A stretch of 32,347 nt of DNA from Sulfurovum sp. (lineage in GTDB: Bacteria > Campylobacterota > Campylobacteria > Campylobacterales > Sulfurovaceae). Below the pieces are notes generated by a model. It saw only the letters and a list, made by a program, of their open reading frames with translations. It ran no database searches and had not been told where the DNA came from. Made by a program: the position numbers and the translations under genes. Within the stretch, counting starts at the first letter, position 1, and each line of letters begins with the position of its first letter. The stretch is from positions 1-32,347 of the forward strand of contig DYMA01000008.1 in NCBI GenBank assembly GCA_020721815.1, in the 5' to 3' direction. Shown here in pieces: positions 2,392 to 20,958 of this stretch.

Positions 2392-2610
2392 TCAATCAAT
2401 CTCAATCAATCTCATTTCAGTTTGTCGCAATCCCACAAGGGTATCATCGACAAGAAGCTCTACGTTTTGTTTGCCTATAGCAAAGCCTCGTACTTCAATA
2501 TCAGCTCCTCTAGTGAGTCCTAAGGATTGAAGTCGTAGCTTCAAATCTTTTTGGGCGTGAATATCCACCACTTTGGCTTTTTCGCCAATATTCATATCTA
2601 CAATGCTCAT
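2392..2610 (-). CDS. feoA: FeoA-family ferrous iron transport protein
   Basis: 72 aa, MSIVDMNIGEKAKVVDI...LKLRLQSLGLTRGADIEVRGFAIGKQNVELLVDDTLVGLRQTEMRLIEID; FeoA SH3-like pattern; in the same cluster as feoB. Confidence 0.88.
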   Translation of the reverse strand: MSIVDMNIGEKAKVVDIHAQKDLKLRLQSLGLTRGADIEVRGFAIGKQNVELLVDDTLVGLRQTEMRLIEID

Positions 2611-2891
2611 TTGTTATTCACCTCTTTTGGTTTGTTTTGATTAAAAATTGAGACTATCTCAATGGATTGTGTCTCCGTTTTGATACGATAGACAATCGTA
2701 TAGCCTTTAAAAATCATATCACGAATCTCTTTGTTATTAAAATAGATTGATTGACGATATTGGTAGGGAAAATCTACCATATTATCAAGCTGAATGCGAA
2801 ATTTCTTACTTGCTCCAATCTTGTCTTTGGCAATAGTTTCTAAAATATGCAAAAGTTCATCTTGATACTGTTGAGTTTTTTGAATATTCAT
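2607..2891 (-). CDS. RelE/ParE-family toxin
   Basis: 94 aa with ...YRQSIYFNNKEIRDMIFKGYTIVYRIKTETQSIEIVSIFNQNK, typical of the ParE/RelE C-terminal half. Paired with a short upstream ORF. Confidence 0.75.
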   Translation of the reverse strand: MNIQKTQQYQDELLHILETIAKDKIGASKKFRIQLDNMVDFPYQYRQSIYFNNKEIRDMIFKGYTIVYRIKTETQSIEIVSIFNQNKPKEVNNK

Positions 2892-3132
2892 CTTCTAATC
2901 TTTCAAAAAGTGCATCAATTTGTTTTTGAGACTCTTGATCGGAATAGATTTTCATCTTTCCACTATCTATAGCTTCCAATGTTTTTTGAAGTTGCTCTTG
3001 ACGTTGATAAAAATAGGGATCTTGCACCCAATCAGGATTTTTTTGAAGTTTGATTTTATCTTTATAGCCTTCGATAATCCTCAAAAAATCTTGCATAAAA
3101 CTCTCTTCTACATTAATAATAAGGGTTTGCAT
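2857..3132 (-). CDS. Putative antitoxin partner of the ParE-like toxin
   Basis: 91 aa, overlaps the toxin ORF and lies immediately upstream of it; small charged protein. Confidence 0.6.
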   Translation of the reverse strand: MQTLIINVEESFMQDFLRIIEGYKDKIKLQKNPDWVQDPYFYQRQEQLQKTLEAIDSGKMKIYSDQESQKQIDALFERLEDEYSKNSTVSR

Positions 3133-3181
3133 TATTTTTCCTTTTTTATTTAATTTAACGTCAAAACGAACACATTCGTTT

Positions 3182-5296
3182 TTACGCCATGATTACCAAA
3201 ACTCTGTAGGTTATAAAACTCAATACCCACGCACTACCCGTTGTAAATACAAAAAGATAGCCCAAATATTTCCAACTTCCCGCTTCTCGTACAAATACCA
3301 TTGAAGCGGCCAAACAAGGGAGGTAAATCATAACAAAAACGATAAACGCCATAGCAGCAGGAAAGCTTATGTTTTGACGTAGCTGTTCTTGCAAATTGCT
3401 ACTTGTCTCATCACTCTCTCCTATTGCATAGAGTATTCCCAGTGTCGAAACCACCATCTCTTTGGCAGCTAGTCCCGTTTCCAAAGCAACCGCCATCTTC
3501 CAATCCATGCCCAAAGGCACAACCAAAGGCTCGGTAAATTTGCCGATAATGCCCAAATAGCTATTTTCAAGCAGTTTCATTTGCAACTCATTAGCCAAAG
3601 CCACCTTTGTCTCTTCCGCTGTTGCGTTTTCAATTTTTGTGTTGTAACTTGCTTCAAGCACCCTGTTTTTGGGATAGTTGCTCGCAAACCAAATCACAAT
3701 CGAAGCCAACAAAATAAACGTTCCTGCCTTTTTGAGATAGGAGAGTGCTTGTATGTAAACCGTATGCCAGATTAGCTTGAGTGAGGGCAAACGATACTTT
3801 GGCATCTCCATAACAAAGGGTTCATCCTCGCCTTTAAATACCAAAAGATGCAGCACTTTAGCCCCGATTAGCCCCAATAACGCCCCAGCAATATAGATGA
3901 GAAACAACACATTACCCGCACTGCTTGGGGCAAAAAAGGCAGAGACAAACAAGACATAAATAGGCAATCTCGCCCCACAACTCATAAAGCCAATGATAAA
4001 AAGTGTAAGCAATCTATCCCGTTCGTTTTTGAGTGTGCGTGCTGCCATGTAGGCGGGTACAGAGCATCCAAAGCCTGTCACAAGTGGGATAAAGCTCTTG
4101 CCGTGGAGTCCAAATTTGTGAAAAAATCCATCAAGCAAAAACGCCACACGGCTCATATAGCCCGTCGTTTCAAGCAGTGCAATACCGATAAAAAGGATAA
4201 TAATATTGGGCAAAAAAAGCACCACCGCTCCCACACCTGCAATCATTCCATCGGCTACCAATTGCCCCAAATTGCCCTCACCCAGTATAAATTTGGCTTG
4301 TTCTCCCAAATAGGCAAAAAAGGCATCAATATACTCCATAGGAATAGCCCCTAGCTCAAAGGTAAGCTGAAACAAAGCCCACATAAAAAAGAGAAAGATA
4401 GGAATCCCTACAATCTTGTCAATCAAAATATTATCAATTTTTTGCGTGAGATTGGCTGCTCGCATACTTTTGGTACTCATTACCTCCATTTTGACACCTT
4501 TGGCAAAGGCAAAATACTCATCGCTAAAGATTTGGGTTATATCTTGGGTGTCGGTATGAAGATAGATGTGCGTTTTGGCTTCACGGATAATCGGGGCTAT
4601 CTCCATCCAAATAGGCTTATCGTGGATAAGGGCATAGGCCTCTTTGTCTTCTTGCAACAACTTAATACTCATTTGACGATAGCTATAAGGTGAGACAAAT
4701 TTTTTGGCTTTGAGAAAAAAGTTAAGCTTTGCAATCTCTTCTTCCATAAAATCACTATAGACAACTTTGGAGGGAGTGTTTGGGCTATTGTGGGCTTTGA
4801 TAATAGCGCTTTTAAGCTCCTCTATCCCTATCTTTTTGTTGGCACTGGTTTTGATGCACGGTACACCCAAAATAGTGGAGAGTTGTTTGTGGTCTATCTC
4901 AATCCCCTCTTTGTTGGCTTCATCTATCATATTGAGGGCTACGACGACTTTTTTGCCCATCTCAAGGAGTTGCGTCGTAAAGGTGAGATTGCGTTGGAGA
5001 TGGGTAGAATCGACTACATTAACTATCACGTCATACTCATCGCTCAACAAAAAGCTTCGAGTGACTTTCTCTTCTATTGTATAATCCGTAAGCGAATAGG
5101 CTCCTGGTAAATCAATAATATCAACGCTGTAATCTTGACAACTCACCTCATCGCAAAATCTAAAATTGATTTGTGTCTTTTCTACCGTGACCCCCGAAAA
5201 GTTGCCTACTTTGAGTTTGGCATTGGAGATGGCATTAATGAGTGAACTTTTGCCCACATTGGGCTGACCTGCAAGAGCTACCTTGATTGTGTTCAT
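3182..5296 (-). CDS. feoB: Ferrous iron transporter B
   Basis: 704 aa with N-terminal G domain (ALAGQPNVGKSSLINAI, DLPGAYSLT, NMID) and Gate-type membrane domains (GFGCSVPAYMAARTL). Confidence 0.97.
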   Translation of the reverse strand: MNTIKVALAGQPNVGKSSLINAISNAKLKVGNFSGVTVEKTQINFRFCDEVSCQDYSVDIIDLPGAYSLTDYTIEEKVTRSFLLSDEYDVIVNVVDSTHLQRNLTFTTQLLEMGKKVVVALNMIDEANKEGIEIDHKQLSTILGVPCIKTSANKKIGIEELKSAIIKAHNSPNTPSKVVYSDFMEEEIAKLNFFLKAKKFVSPYSYRQMSIKLLQEDKEAYALIHDKPIWMEIAPIIREAKTHIYLHTDTQDITQIFSDEYFAFAKGVKMEVMSTKSMRAANLTQKIDNILIDKIVGIPIFLFFMWALFQLTFELGAIPMEYIDAFFAYLGEQAKFILGEGNLGQLVADGMIAGVGAVVLFLPNIIILFIGIALLETTGYMSRVAFLLDGFFHKFGLHGKSFIPLVTGFGCSVPAYMAARTLKNERDRLLTLFIIGFMSCGARLPIYVLFVSAFFAPSSAGNVLFLIYIAGALLGLIGAKVLHLLVFKGEDEPFVMEMPKYRLPSLKLIWHTVYIQALSYLKKAGTFILLASIVIWFASNYPKNRVLEASYNTKIENATAEETKVALANELQMKLLENSYLGIIGKFTEPLVVPLGMDWKMAVALETGLAAKEMVVSTLGILYAIGESDETSSNLQEQLRQNISFPAAMAFIVFVMIYLPCLAASMVFVREAGSWKYLGYLFVFTTGSAWVLSFITYRVLVIMA

Positions 5297-15166: not shown

Positions 15167-17410
15167 TTAAAATTTTGTCCCCATTGAAAACTCAAAAGTA
15201 CTTGTGCTATCACCCGTCTCATCATCCAAAGCTTTGGCAAAGACGAGATTGATAGGACCAAAGCCCGATTGCCACTCAATGACGACACCTGCTGAACTTC
15301 GTTTGATCTCATCAAAGCTATCTTCACCTATCATACCGTAGTCATAGAAACCTGTCAAACGCATTTTGGCTTCGGTGGAGAGCGGAATACTTGCCTCGAT
15401 ACTGGTTGTGAAGTTTTGAAGTCCCCCTGTTCGTCTGCCCAATGTATCTCTAGGAGAGAGTGAGTAGGCGTTGTATCCTCTTAAGCTTCCGATACCACCC
15501 ATAAAGAGTTTTTCAGCAATTGGCACATACCCTTCATCGGTGATGTAATTGATTCTGGCTTTGTATCGCAAAATCAAATCGTAATCAATAATATCTTGGA
15601 AACCGTAATAAGCACCAAATTTTGCTTTGTATTTGATAAACTCGGCATCTCCGCCCAATCCAGCGTATTCGATGTTGAGTCCTGCAATGATACCCTCACG
15701 CGCTACATAAAAATCATCGGTGTTGTCGAAACTAAACCCAATAAGTCCTGCACTTTTGACGTAAGTACCTGTAAAGATAGGGTCAATCACCCCTCCACCA
15801 ATAGCGTTGGGATTGGCAGCGTTGTTAGCTTCGTGAAAATCGGTATCGACATAGGCGTATCCCAATGAAGCGTAGAAGTTTCGAGTGAGCTGTTTACCCA
15901 CCGCAATGCTTCCACCAATTTGCTCTTGATCGTAATCAATGTACTCATAATCACGTTTATAGAGATTGAGTGCCAATGAGTATTCGCTATCAAAAACCCT
16001 TGGGTTGGAGAAGCTTACATTGTAGTTGGTTGAAACCTCTGAAACATCAAATCCTAAACTCGCCGTAATCCCTGTACCAAAGATGTTTTTATCCGATACA
16101 CTCGCATTGAGCATAAACCCTTCGTAGCTTCCGTATCCACCTCCAGCGGTAATGCTACCTGTGGCGGTCTCTTTGACTTTGACGTGCAAATCGACTTTGT
16201 CGGAGGATACACGCTTGGGTGTGATTTCAACATTTTCAAAAAATCCTGTTCGTCCCAAAGCACTTTTGGAGTCTTTGAGATCGGTATAGCTGTAGGTATC
16301 ACCTGGAGCGAGATAGATGTAGCGTCTAACTACGCTATCTTTTGTCGCACTGTTTCCTGAAATGATAACGTCATTGATTTTGACTTGATCACCTGCAAGA
16401 ACCTGATAGGTTACGCTTACTTTTTTGTTTTGGGTATCTTTTTGGAAGTTTGGCATGATTTGGGCGTTGGCATATCCCAAATTTCCTACTTGTTCGGTGA
16501 GGTATTTGATATCTTGTCGCACTCTTTCGATATTAAAGACACGCCCTGTTTGAAGCTTGAACTCATCTTTATCGACTTTGAGTCCTGGTACATTTTGCAT
16601 AATATCGACACGAGAAACACGGTATTGTACTCCCTCATTGACGACATAGTTTACCTCGGCGTTGTAGGTACCAAAATCGACACGCATGACAGGTTTGCTC
16701 ACGGTTGCATCAAGGTATCCTTTTTCGAGGTAAGCATCTCTTGCACGGTAAGCATCGTAAGAGAGCTGATCGACATTGGCATCTCCGCTGTTACGTCCTG
16801 GCAAAAAGCCCAACACTTCGCTCTCTTTGTTGGCGACTTTTTTCTCAATTTCGTTTTTGCTTAGATTTTTTGCCCCTACGAAATTGACTTTTTTGATATT
16901 AATCTTCTCGCCCTTATTGACTTTAAACGTCAATGCCATACCGTCGTTGATTTTTGTCTCTTCGATAGTGACAACCGTATCGTAGTAGCCCTCCGATTCA
17001 ATTTTTTTGGCTAGTGCTTGTTTGGCCTTTTCGATGGTGATTTTGTCGTAAAAATCGCCTCGTTTGAGTCCTACTTGCTCCAATGCCTTGACACCATCTT
17101 CTTCGCTGCCGTATCCCTCTACTTTGATATTGGTAATGGCATTTTTCTCTTTGACGTGATAGACTAAACCGCCACCGCCTCTGTTTTCGACATAAACATC
17201 GCTAAAGTAACCCTGGGCAAAAAGTTTTTTGACCGACTCATTGACACGTCGAGGATCCAATGGATCGCCTACATGAATATCGGCAACCTCTTTGGCTACC
17301 TCTGGTGATAGATGCACAAGACCATCAAATTTGATACTTGTAACCTTTTGCCCCATCAAGAGCGAACCTGCAACAAGTGATAACGCTATAATTTTCTTCA
17401 TAAAACACAC
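15167..17410 (-). CDS. bamA: Outer membrane protein assembly factor BamA
   Basis: 747 aa with POTRA repeats, FMGGIGSLRGYNAYSLSPRD and C-terminal beta signal FEFSMGTKF. Start may be MKKIIAL, a few codons downstream. Confidence 0.96.
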   Translation of the reverse strand: MCFMKKIIALSLVAGSLLMGQKVTSIKFDGLVHLSPEVAKEVADIHVGDPLDPRRVNESVKKLFAQGYFSDVYVENRGGGGLVYHVKEKNAITNIKVEGYGSEEDGVKALEQVGLKRGDFYDKITIEKAKQALAKKIESEGYYDTVVTIEETKINDGMALTFKVNKGEKINIKKVNFVGAKNLSKNEIEKKVANKESEVLGFLPGRNSGDANVDQLSYDAYRARDAYLEKGYLDATVSKPVMRVDFGTYNAEVNYVVNEGVQYRVSRVDIMQNVPGLKVDKDEFKLQTGRVFNIERVRQDIKYLTEQVGNLGYANAQIMPNFQKDTQNKKVSVTYQVLAGDQVKINDVIISGNSATKDSVVRRYIYLAPGDTYSYTDLKDSKSALGRTGFFENVEITPKRVSSDKVDLHVKVKETATGSITAGGGYGSYEGFMLNASVSDKNIFGTGITASLGFDVSEVSTNYNVSFSNPRVFDSEYSLALNLYKRDYEYIDYDQEQIGGSIAVGKQLTRNFYASLGYAYVDTDFHEANNAANPNAIGGGVIDPIFTGTYVKSAGLIGFSFDNTDDFYVAREGIIAGLNIEYAGLGGDAEFIKYKAKFGAYYGFQDIIDYDLILRYKARINYITDEGYVPIAEKLFMGGIGSLRGYNAYSLSPRDTLGRRTGGLQNFTTSIEASIPLSTEAKMRLTGFYDYGMIGEDSFDEIKRSSAGVVIEWQSGFGPINLVFAKALDDETGDSTSTFEFSMGTKF

Positions 17411-17526
17411 ACTCTCTTATAGAAAAATTTTAAGAATAGTGTATCTATTTTTGGCTAAAAAGTTCATAATAAAGGCTTGAAAATATCAAATTAACCCCAA
17501 TAATAACAAAATGAATGCAATACAAC

Positions 17527-17560
17527 CCCTACCCTCCCCGCCCGTGCGTTTTTCGTGCAC
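17527..17560 (-). repeat. Copy A of the 3'-gene-end repeat
   Basis: Minus strand GTGCACGAAAAACGCACGGGCGGGGAGGGTAGGG; 31/34 identical by eye to copy C. Confidence 0.75.
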
Positions 17561-17613
17561 GAATACTTCTACATTTTGGTATAATAGTCCAATAGTTACC
17601 AAAGGAGCTTAAG

Positions 17614-17859
17614 ATGATAGCGATTGGATTTGAAGTCACTAGAGCAGATTTAGTTGATGAGTTTATGCAGTGGTTGCACCAGCAAAAAAAAGAGGATGTG
17701 AAGCTTACGTTTGTGCGTGATAGATCGGCTCAATTTGATGAAAATGGTATTGAGTATGTTGATGATAGAGAGCAAAAAGAGATTGAATCGATATTGGCAC
17801 AATTCACGCCACAAGATAGAGAAGTTTCACATACCAAAACATTGACGATAGAGCTTTAA
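17614..17859 (+). CDS. Putative antitoxin of a RelE/ParE-type module
   Basis: 81 aa; 1-nt stop/start overlap (TAATG) with the toxin ORF; preceded by AAAGGAG. Confidence 0.6.
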   Translation: MIAIGFEVTRADLVDEFMQWLHQQKKEDVKLTFVRDRSAQFDENGIEYVDDREQKEIESILAQFTPQDREVSHTKTLTIEL

Positions 17860-18146
17860 TGCAACGCCAAATCAAAATTACTTACCTCAAAAAAGCAACC
17901 AAATTCCTCAACAAAAATCCTAATAGTATTACCGAAGAAGATGTGGATGCTCTAATGATTTTGGCAATCAAAAAGAGAGTTTTTATGCAAGATGTAAATC
18001 TTGATATTAAAGCTTTAAAGGGTTCTTATCTAGGCAAAAATAGAGTACGCAAAGGCAAAATTCGCATTATCTTTGAAATAATTGAAAATAGTGTAGTTAT
18101 TGAGTCAATTGTTGAAAATATTGATTTTAGGGGAAGTATTTACTAG
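17859..18146 (+). CDS. RelE/ParE-like toxin
   Basis: 95 aa ...NLDIKALKGSYLGKNRVRKGKIRIIFEIIENSVVIESIVENIDFRGSIY, RelE-like C-terminal pattern. Confidence 0.72.
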   Translation: MQRQIKITYLKKATKFLNKNPNSITEEDVDALMILAIKKRVFMQDVNLDIKALKGSYLGKNRVRKGKIRIIFEIIENSVVIESIVENIDFRGSIY

Positions 18147-18151
18147 AGCAT

Positions 18152-18202
18152 TTCTCCTCAGCCGTGCATTTTTCTTGTACTGATGATGTGAAAATCTTGG
18201 CT
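18152..18202 (-). repeat. Copy B of the 3'-gene-end repeat
   Basis: Minus strand AGCCAAGATTTTCACATCATCAGTACAAGAAAAATGCACGGCTG; 4 mismatches by eye over about 40 nt against copy C. Confidence 0.75.
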
Positions 18203-18410
18203 ATCTCTTTTGCCACTTGAATATATCAAGTATCTCAATGGTTGCATTATTTACGCAATAGACCACTGTGTAGCCTAGATGCATCAAATCTCTACAGTTT
18301 GTGTCATCTTTGTGTGGGTCATTGCGAGGCACGAAGCAATCTATTTTAAATTGTGTCACAAGCAACGACTTTAAATCTGTAGCCTCGGCTTTAGCCCGAG
18401 TTTGAGACAC
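18201..18410 (-). pseudogene. Truncated RelE/ParE-like toxin remnant fused to interspersed-repeat sequence
   Basis: Only the C-terminal CRDLMHLGYTVVYCVNNATIEILDIFKWQKR is toxin-like. The N-terminal part of the ORF lies inside the repeat element at 18318-18499. Confidence 0.6.
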
Positions 18411-18499
18411 CTGATAGCCTCTAATTTGTTCGGCTAAAGCCGAACCTACTAAAAAAGTAGAAATAAAACCCAGATTGCTTCACTAGCGTTCGCAATGAC
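18318..18499. repeat. Palindromic MITE-like/interspersed repeat element
   Basis: Ends GTCATTGCGAGGCACGAAGCAATCT (18318-18342) and AGATTGCTTCACTAGCGTTCGCAATGAC (18472-18499) are imperfect inverted repeats. Interior hairpin GTTCGGCT-AA-AGCCGAAC (18428-18445) and CTCGGctttagcCCGAG. Confidence 0.7.
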
Positions 18500-18566
18500 G
18501 CACTCTAACGGGGTAATTTTTTAAGTGCGCAACATCAGCTGTACAATATGAGAGCATTGGGATTTT

Positions 18567-18923
18567 TTAAAGCATGAGTTGTTTTAACGCACTCTCTACC
18601 AAAAAGGTAGAGCGATTGATATTGTGGCTTTTGGTGTAGTTATCAATCTGTTCAAGGGCATAGGCAGGTATGGTGATATTAATTCTTTTTGTTTTCATCA
18701 AGTGAGAGGGCTCTTTGATACTATCCCCTTTGACAAGGGCTACATCCAAATAGGAGGCAAAAGCCAATTTCGCATCATTAATTGCCTCTTCGATACTCTC
18801 TCCATCCCCTGCAATAAAGGGCATATCAACATAATAAGCCAATATACCTCCACCCTCAGCTTCACTTAGCTCTCGCGTAGCGATACCATACTCCAATGCT
18901 AGATAATAGTCTCTATTTCTCAT
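18567..18923 (-). CDS. HicB-family antitoxin
   Basis: 118 aa; ...GGGILAYYVDMPFIAGDGESIEEAINDAKLAFASYLDVAL... plus C-terminal RHH (RINITIPAYALEQIDNYTKSHNINRSTFLVESALKQLM). Confidence 0.82.
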   Translation of the reverse strand: MRNRDYYLALEYGIATRELSEAEGGGILAYYVDMPFIAGDGESIEEAINDAKLAFASYLDVALVKGDSIKEPSHLMKTKRINITIPAYALEQIDNYTKSHNINRSTFLVESALKQLML

Positions 18924-18982
18924 CCAAAACTCCTAGTGATTTTAAAAGTTTCTCTTTTTTACTCACGGTGTGCCTTTTTATA

Positions 18983-19003
18983 TGTGTACTGTTATTATAC
19001 ACA
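18983..19003 (-). promoter_or_regulatory. Candidate hic promoter/operator
   Basis: Minus strand TGTGTATAATAACAGTACACA: inverted repeat TGTGTA/TACACA containing a -10-like TATAAT, upstream of hicB. Confidence 0.5.
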
Positions 19004-19278
19004 CTTTTATAGTTGAATGCAAATACATTCACACTTACATCCGTTCGCAAACATATCAAAGAAGCCCTGCTGTGGTGGTCTCAAACATCTGCATTTCACA
19101 ATACAATTGCAAAACGAGAGAAAATTTATTTTTTGATCTTTAGTCTATATGTTTGACTTCATATTGTTTCTTTTTTCCAATATCATCTATGCGTACTTGA
19201 TTGGTTTTTTGATTTATTTTTATATCTTTTTTATCATCAGTAACAATGAGTATATTTTTGGCATCTTTGTTTTTGACA

Positions 19279-19334
19279 CCCTACCCTCCCCAGCCGTGCA
19301 TTTTTCGTGCACTGATGATGTGAAAATCGTCGCT
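19279..19334 (-). repeat. Copy C of the repeat, coinciding with the 3' end of the 19281..19808 gene
   Basis: Encodes the C-terminus SDDFHIISARKMHGWGG*; partial copies A and B lie at 17527 and 18152. Confidence 0.75.
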
Positions 19335-19808
19335 GATGTCGATGGGGTTGATGGCTACGAAGTAGTTGTCTTGAAGCGTATGAAACCACCGTTCGTAGGT
19401 TTGGGGGTTTTTATCGGTGAAGGCTAGAATAATGCCTCCGCTTTTGATAACGGTATAGACTTTTTGGATAAACTCCCCAAGCATCTCCTCTTCAATGGTG
19501 GCACTCACATAGAGATAGTCGTAAAATTTGCCTTGCATTCCGTAGCGGGGCTGTTTGAGATGGAGTAAACGCACACTTGAACTAGGCGATGAAAAGCGGG
19601 ATTTGTACTCTTCGAGTTTGTCGCTACGCACAAGATTGAGTTGAAAATCGTAATCGCACCTTTGGGTGTGTTCAAATAACCTTTGGGTGAGCTTAATCTC
19701 ATCGTCAAATTGCACTTGCCCATCGCTTATCTGCATCACTCTTGTGGCGGGATAGGGGAGTATGATATTGACAATATCGGCTAGGGTTTTATCGTTTAAT
19801 TTTTTCAC
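19281..19808 (-). CDS. Conserved hypothetical protein, possibly methyltransferase-like
   Basis: 175 aa; ...FYDYLYVSATIEEEMLGEFIQKVYTVIKSGGIILAFTDKNPQTYERWFHTLQDNYFVAINPIDISDDFHIISARKMHGWGG. The C-terminal half resembles a Rossmann-type fold; family uncertain. Confidence 0.75.
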   Translation of the reverse strand: MKKLNDKTLADIVNIILPYPATRVMQISDGQVQFDDEIKLTQRLFEHTQRCDYDFQLNLVRSDKLEEYKSRFSSPSSSVRLLHLKQPRYGMQGKFYDYLYVSATIEEEMLGEFIQKVYTVIKSGGIILAFTDKNPQTYERWFHTLQDNYFVAINPIDISDDFHIISARKMHGWGG

Positions 19809-19938
19809 AATTTACTCCTATTTTATGGTTTTGTAATCTTCTATATAGTATATTGTGCCAAAACTTACAATTAAGACTATTGAAACAAAACCGATCCAAA
19901 CAAACTTACAACGTTTCAATAGGTTTCAAGAGGCAATC

Positions 19939-20958
19939 ATGCAACGAAAAAAGATTTACAATCCAGACTCTACCGAAAAGACACGCGATAGAAAAATATT
20001 TGGGGGCGATCCTACAGGGATTTTTGAACTCAACAACATCAAATACCAATGGGCATACAACCTATGGGAGATGATGCTCAACAACACATGGTTTCCAAAA
20101 GAGGTCGATATGACTCCCGATGTGCAAGACTACAAGCACCTCACCGATGCCGAAAAGGTAGCCTACGATAAGGTTTTGGCGCAACTTATCTTTATGGATT
20201 CGCTCCAAACCAACAACATCATCGACAACATTAACCCCTTTATCACCTCGCCCGAGATCAATTTGGTACTCGTTCGTCAATCCTTTGAAGAGGCTCTGCA
20301 CTCTCAAAGTTACGCCGTTATGGTCGATTCTATCTCTACTAATAGCGATGAGATTTATGAGTTGTGGCGGCGTGATATGATGCTCAAAAGCAAAAACGAT
20401 GCCATTGCCAAAGTCTATAATGAACTTAGTAGCAATCCCAATGACCGCAATATCGTCAAAGCGATGTTTGCCAATCAGATACTAGAGGGGATTTACTTCT
20501 ACAGCGGTTTTACCTACATCTACACCCTAGCACGAAGCGGCAAGATGCTAGGTTCTGCACAAATGATTCGCTTCATTCAACGAGATGAGGTGACGCACCT
20601 CTTGCTTTTTCAAAATATGATTAATGTCACCAAACGGGAACGCCCCGAACTCTTCACGCAAGATTTGCTTGATGAAGTCTATGCGATGTTCAAAGATGCC
20701 GTACGATTGGAGAGTGCATGGGGCAAATACATCACCCAAGGGCAGATTTTGGGACTCACCGACAACATTATAGAACAATACATTCAATACCTAGCCGATG
20801 AACGTCTAAGGGCGGTAGGACTCGAAAAGCTCTACAATGTATCGCATCCTATCAAATGGGTCGATGATTTTTCAAAGTTTAACGATCAAAAGACCAACTT
20901 TTTTGAGGGAAATGTCACCAACTACTCCAAAGGGAGTTTGGATTTTGATGATTTTTAG
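19939..20958 (+). CDS. nrdB: Ribonucleotide-diphosphate reductase beta subunit
   Basis: [23 protein letters not shown]..., [58 protein letters not shown]. The ORF is open from 19855, but ATG 19939 has AAGAGG upstream and starts the conserved region. Confidence 0.93.

Follow-up and report, generated by a model that had tools for sequence, protein, structure and literature searches.

Duplicated host gene ends may record successive toxin-antitoxin acquisitions at a Sulfurovum hotspot

Insertion with long target duplication was reportedly described for restriction-modification (RM) systems by Nobusato et al. in 2000 and by Furuta et al. in 2010. Three papers describe this type of insertion for RM systems, first from comparisons of Helicobacter pylori (PMC1643837, PMC3031569, PMC3874152), and a fourth also cites it (PMC4978471). 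H. pylori belongs to the same phylum as Sulfurovum, the source of the 32,347-nucleotide stretch of DNA analyzed here (contig DYMA01000008.1, hereafter the window), in which the end of a host gene occurs in three copies around two toxin-antitoxin (TA) modules. This locus and others like it in Sulfurovum resemble the RM insertions in that addiction-type modules lie between long direct repeats of host sequence of variable length (of the order of 100 bp for RM systems), with no transposase. Unlike the RM insertions, they carry mainly TA modules and single-operon defence genes, they duplicate mostly the 3' ends of genes, over 32-154 bp, and their modules stack at one site, with sites reused in sister species. 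Since the cargo is not RM (it is TA in the window, and TA, RhuM, YhcG and other defence candidates in a sister genome), we regard these loci as a variant of insertion with long target duplication rather than as strict members of the class.

Two further systems are comparable. The T6SS effector-immunity arrays of Vibrio cholerae have been explained by homology-facilitated illegitimate recombination (PMC5361080). As may be the case in Sulfurovum, modules are added there beside the resident one through a one-sided homologous anchor, and protective genes are retained. However, in T6SS arrays displacement of the old effector leaves only the immunity genes, whereas Sulfurovum keeps whole TA pairs or their remnants, and an unrelated housekeeping gene would supply the anchor through its end. 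Integron cassettes and Xer/pdif TA modules also form TA arrays separated by repeats in a single orientation, but the Sulfurovum repeats are locus-specific host sequence, with neither a conserved or folded site nor a dedicated integrase. The question that these loci address is how small TA and defence modules move without a mobile element.

Three gene-end copies and their cargo

We compared the genome to which the window belongs (2.41 Mb in 277 contigs) with those of Sulfurovum sp. FS08-3 and of a cave Sulfurovum bin, which are 97% and 95% identical to the window over the studied region, respectively. All compared genomes are metagenome assemblies. The order along the window is gene end C, HicB/ParE remnant, gene-end fragment B, RelE pair, gene-end fragment A and bamA, and the features are the following:

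15167-17410, minus strand: bamA (Omp85 and POTRA), the flank beyond copy A
17527-17560, minus strand: copy A, displaced gene-end fragment (core and stop-codon side), carrying AAAAACGCAC
17614-17859, plus strand: antitoxin-like 81-aa gene of the A-B module, so called from its position before the toxin; no family match
17859-18146, plus strand: predicted RelE/YafQ-fold toxin of the A-B module (profile and Foldseek)
18152-18202, minus strand: copy B, displaced gene-end fragment (upstream half and core), between the ends of two convergent toxin reading frames
18201-18311, minus strand: putative C-terminal remnant of a ParE-like toxin (DDTNCRDLMHLGYTVVYCVNNATIEILDIFKWQKR) in the B-C module, recognized by eye only
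18304-18538, no strand assigned: dispersed repeat of about 235 bp interrupting the B-C toxin; about 40 matches in the window's own genome
18567-18923, minus strand: HicB-like antitoxin of the B-C module (PF15919, 2.7e-12)
19279-19334, minus strand: copy C, intact 3' end of the host gene
19281-19808, minus strand: 175-aa host gene, conserved across the family, C-terminus ...SARKMHGWGG*
19930-20958, plus strand: nrdB, the flank on the host-gene side

Copies B and C align over 49 nt (18154-18202 against 19286-19334, 90% identical, score 36.5), and copies A and C over the 34 nt of copy A (against 19279-19312, 31/34 identical, score 26.5). Both scores are well above what the 2-kb region yields after dinucleotide shuffling: across 200 shuffles, the best direct repeat scored 16 and the median was 11. 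The first-pass annotation of this DNA had described three copies in the same orientation, with C as the real end of the gene, and both points are confirmed. All three copies lie in one orientation as direct repeats of host sequence (27-49 nt), and the C-terminal peptide is conserved in relatives: KMHGWG, in the form (A/K)KMHGWG(G), is kept in the 30 orthologues examined across the family. This conservation indicates that the core shared by the copies is primarily a protein-coding end, and that A and B are its displaced copies. The host gene itself has no Pfam or NCBIfam name, and an Rfam search returned no match. When we searched the whole 2.41 Mb of the window's own genome for the 19-nt core, allowing up to three mismatches, we retrieved three sites, all at the window locus. 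The core is therefore not a dispersed repeat, a possibility that the first-pass annotation had itself raised against its interpretation.

In the A-B module, the 81-aa gene overlaps the following 95-aa gene at position 17859, and neither protein has a name in Pfam or NCBIfam. A two-sequence profile of the 95-aa protein matched RelE3 in the PDB (E 1.9e-4), and its structural model (mean pLDDT 72) matched YafQ and RelE1 in Foldseek with probability 1.00. On the basis of the profile match and of the modelled fold, this protein is most likely a RelE/YafQ-type toxin, which supports the initial assignment of the module as a RelE/ParE-type pair. A predicted RelE-fold toxin with a small overlapping gene ahead of it is also the layout of RelE/ParE type II systems. 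The B-C module is made, as first described, of a toxin remnant, a repeat and a HicB antitoxin, the last identified by its Pfam match; the ParE-like remnant has no match in Pfam. This module is probably dead. The dispersed repeat within it is of the GTCATTGCGAGGCACGAAGCAATC type and has many matches in FS08-3 too. We detected no plasmid relatives, either by DNA or by the toxin protein, and viral contigs contained neither a match to the core nor a relative of the toxin. Elsewhere in the window, at 2607-3132 on the minus strand, another toxin of the ParE family (PF05016) is encoded together with an upstream gene that overlaps it, and no gene-end copies flank the two.

The locus and its counterparts in sister genomes

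At the corresponding locus, the sister genomes carry other cargo. In FS08-3, a RelE-type pair whose toxin is 47% identical to that of the window follows the orthologous host gene. About 50 nt past the end of this pair comes a 14-nt stretch that matches the start of copy A exactly. In the cave bin, where the locus is split over two contigs, a different antitoxin follows the orthologous host gene at the end of one contig, and a degenerate A copy lies beside a ParE-like fragment on the bamA side. The idea of cargo that is bounded by the copies, was acquired piecewise and differs in other species is supported. The homology on the bamA side stops at 17521 against the cave bin and at 17504 against FS08-3, in which bamA lies elsewhere, abutting tyrA, with no gene-end copy there. 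The A-type copies of the three species share AAAAACGCAC, whereas the intact gene ends (C) and copy B have AAAAATGCAC. This shared variant indicates that A is one ancestral displaced end and that the cargo has turned over since. The comparison across strains proposed by the first-pass annotation was therefore borne out for the alternative cargo; as for empty sites, they were found only for other loci, and no genome examined joins the host gene to bamA with a single copy. The RelE-type pair is inverted between the window and FS08-3, which is not explained by simple additive insertion. The missing empty site and the contig breaks make the order of events uncertain. Homologs of the TA genes in other genera (L078-L083) had no obvious gene-end copies in their flanks.

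The same architecture is detectable at other loci. Among 30 ParE loci surveyed in the three genomes, several are bounded by direct repeats far above the control, and most have no such repeats. Several of the flanking repeats were set aside, as they turned out to belong to dispersed elements (L110, L106) or to be CRISPR-like (L098, L112). Other loci have the design seen in the window. One is a radical-SAM gene of the window's own genome, the last 43 nt of which are present at three places, followed by gatC. YoeB- and RelE-type toxins lie between the first two copies, and a BrnT toxin with its antitoxin lies between the last two. The end of the same gene is duplicated around unrelated cargo in FS08-3, and it occurs in two copies in the cave bin, with BrnA- and BrnT-like frames on two contigs. 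Across the three species, the displaced copies share variants that are absent from the intact gene ends. The radical-SAM locus of the window's own genome can be read as stacked alleles, in the same way as acpS in FS08-3.

The acpS locus of FS08-3 consists of the acpS end, ParE and HepT, a 126-nt fragment of the 5' end of the next gene, a second acpS end, VapBC and the intact next gene. The 5' fragment matches the next gene at 124/126 positions, and the second acpS end matches at 32/32. The cave bin has the VapBC allele alone (acpS, VapBC, gene); ahead of the intact gene, FS08-3 has upstream sequence that matches the cave bin and a remnant in the window's own genome. The VapBC-only allele and the matching upstream sequence indicate that FS08-3 contains the resident and a second acpS-locus allele. 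The two alternative TA alleles lie one after the other, separated by remnants of both neighboring genes.

To look for empty sites, we built the predicted joined flanks from FS08-3 and searched them in the other two genomes. At the position of the FS08-3 locus S9, the window's own genome has an empty site: the flanks form an uninterrupted match at 93% identity with a single copy of the 43-nt target, which shows an insertion with target duplication. For acpS, the cave bin, which has VapBC alone, supplies the site that is empty with respect to the added allele. The search returned no informative empty site for loci S1, S5 and S8 in these two genomes.

We extended the analysis to 1.383 Mb of FS08-3 with an unbiased census of locus-specific direct repeats lying 300-4500 bp apart, from which high-copy and intragenic repeats were excluded and tandem paralogs were set aside before counting. 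Overall, we identified about 13 loci with 32-154 nt duplicated around cargo, mostly the 3' end of a neighboring gene (valS, hsdS twice, a carbonic anhydrase, a histidine kinase and an MlaD-family gene, among others). The cargo is mostly TA genes or candidate phage-defence genes identified by PADLOC. The former comprise two MNT/HepT pairs and VapBC twice, once with ParE and HepT; the defence candidates are two RhuM proteins (PDC-S05), PDC-M38AB, a YhcG nuclease (PDC-S02) and PDC-S32. A GNAT protein, a 23S-IVP protein, an ion channel and a lipoprotein form the remaining cargo. The repeats of different loci have no motif in common, and they share k-mers no more than shuffled sequences do. In a separate, independent test, locus-specific direct repeats bound four of the 12 HepT loci in the three genomes, compared to 1.2% of random positions in FS08-3, in a small sample where two of the four bounded loci are the orthologous valS site and the background comes from FS08-3 only.

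An MNT/HepT pair follows valS in both FS08-3 and the window's own genome (L164 9105-12620 and L219 1862-5270, respectively). The displaced valS end measures about 151 nt in the former and 49 nt in the latter, which gauges the decay of the scar. The window's own genome also has a tandem of near-identical TA pairs (L127, contig C188:8000-11837, at 2461-3784; score 592.5 over 595 nt), and a 31-nt piece of the 3' end of the upstream gene lies between them.

How the copies may have formed

We consider it likely that TA modules were added at least twice in succession at a single intergenic hotspot, located between the 175-aa gene and bamA, and that the three copies are the scars of these acquisitions. 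The order of features in the window fits two stacked acquisitions. Incoming DNA bearing a TA module would join at the 3' end of the host gene, which stays intact as C, and each event would push an older copy of the last 30-50 bp of the gene away, first as B and then as A. The DNA would arrive from relatives, probably by natural transformation, which is possible since ComEC is present in the window's own genome and in FS08-3. One end may join through homology within the gene end while the other joins illegitimately; the process is probably homology-anchored illegitimate recombination, as put forward for the T6SS arrays. Gene ends would be found repeatedly because an insertion would be tolerated only when it restores the gene, and no dedicated recombinase would be needed. 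As loss of a resident TA module would be costly, cells that add a module may outlive those that replace one. We infer from this that TA addiction selects addition over replacement, which is the least secure step of the proposal. Some of the cargo is neither TA nor defence (the ion channel and the lipoprotein), and therefore addiction is not strictly required.

The nearest alternative is plain insertion with long target duplication through break repair, in which a staggered break or a template switch picks up a stray piece of TA DNA and copies 30-150 bp of host sequence again, while neither donor homology nor TA addiction plays a part. Such events would produce the variable lengths of the duplications, the lack of a common motif, the non-TA cargo at some loci and the clean empty site at S9, and two papers describe the known RM insertions in this way (PMC3031569, PMC3874152). 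However, both flanking genes contribute ends to the block inserted at acpS, which is to be expected if an allele of the same locus came in but not if stray DNA did, and insertions of this kind lie at the same host genes in several species. We therefore consider break repair on its own unlikely.

The interpretation put forward in the first-pass annotation was that the copies may be attachment-like sites, at which a tyrosine recombinase acting in trans would recognize a quasi-palindromic core and integrate TA cassettes in the manner of integrons or of Xer/dif modules. The repeats do derive from the 3' end of a gene, lie in a single orientation, enclose several cargos and conserve the core between A and C, and Xer-like integrases exist in the window's own genome. 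On the other hand, the core encodes a conserved peptide in C, occurs nowhere else in that genome and, as single-stranded DNA, folds no better than shuffled sequences (z -1.6, 0.5 and 0.15, not significant), contrary to the structured site first suggested. The approximately 13 loci of the census have unrelated repeats of variable length, which are the ends of adjacent genes and share no motif, and the acpS locus duplicates the 5' end of a gene too. As already remarked in the annotation, no integrase is present among the annotated proteins of the window, and the annotated cargo is also free of recombinase genes. The same annotation suggested a search for orphan tyrosine recombinases; the only full-length integrase-family genes of the window's own genome are two Xer-like genes (274-277 aa) common to all three species. 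With no significant fold of the core and no integrase in the window, the locus does not resemble an integron; with no motif common to the loci and no integrase in the annotated cargo, it does not resemble a set of tyrosine-integrase attachment sites either. A recombinase is thus a very improbable explanation of the copies.

A single local event that duplicated the gene end in tandem, with TA genes that arrived independently by unrelated routes, would account for just three copies, all local. This hardly deserves credence, given that about 13 loci show the pattern, each pair of repeats enclosing cargo, and that such repeats flank HepT modules much more frequently than they flank random positions.

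If the copies are scars of successive additive acquisitions, host gene-end duplications are a readable record that marks each arrival, and the scars at about a dozen other places in FS08-3 point to a general route of entry for such genes that needs no transposase. Genome searches for locus-specific gene-end duplications could then uncover TA and defence genes. More tentatively, addiction may itself shape recombination: were replacement lethal at TA hotspots, only additive recombinants would survive, and TA alleles would consequently stack in tandem and leave scars of host gene ends. This recombinase-free ratchet is conceivable, though we would not count on it; if true, it would assemble islands of TA and defence genes in bacteria that recombine naturally.

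Modules and arrays with CRISPR-like repeats

On contig C192 of the window's own genome (L126, 126-1414), two ParE-type TA modules lie between three copies of a CRISPR-like repeat (CCCCTTAAAATCGGGTCAGTGTTG). The locus adjoins cas1 and two cas2-like genes, and the TA pairs are placed as if in spacer positions of an array that is incomplete, since the contig starts there. Contig C62 of FS08-3 contains very long CRISPR arrays at about 64600-68150 and 142950-146900 (L149 and L153), which have one repeat in common (ATAATAACAACGTCCTTATAGGATTTGAAAC). Between these arrays, at 136534-142344, the genes resemble a type III effector operon, which we report as a candidate.
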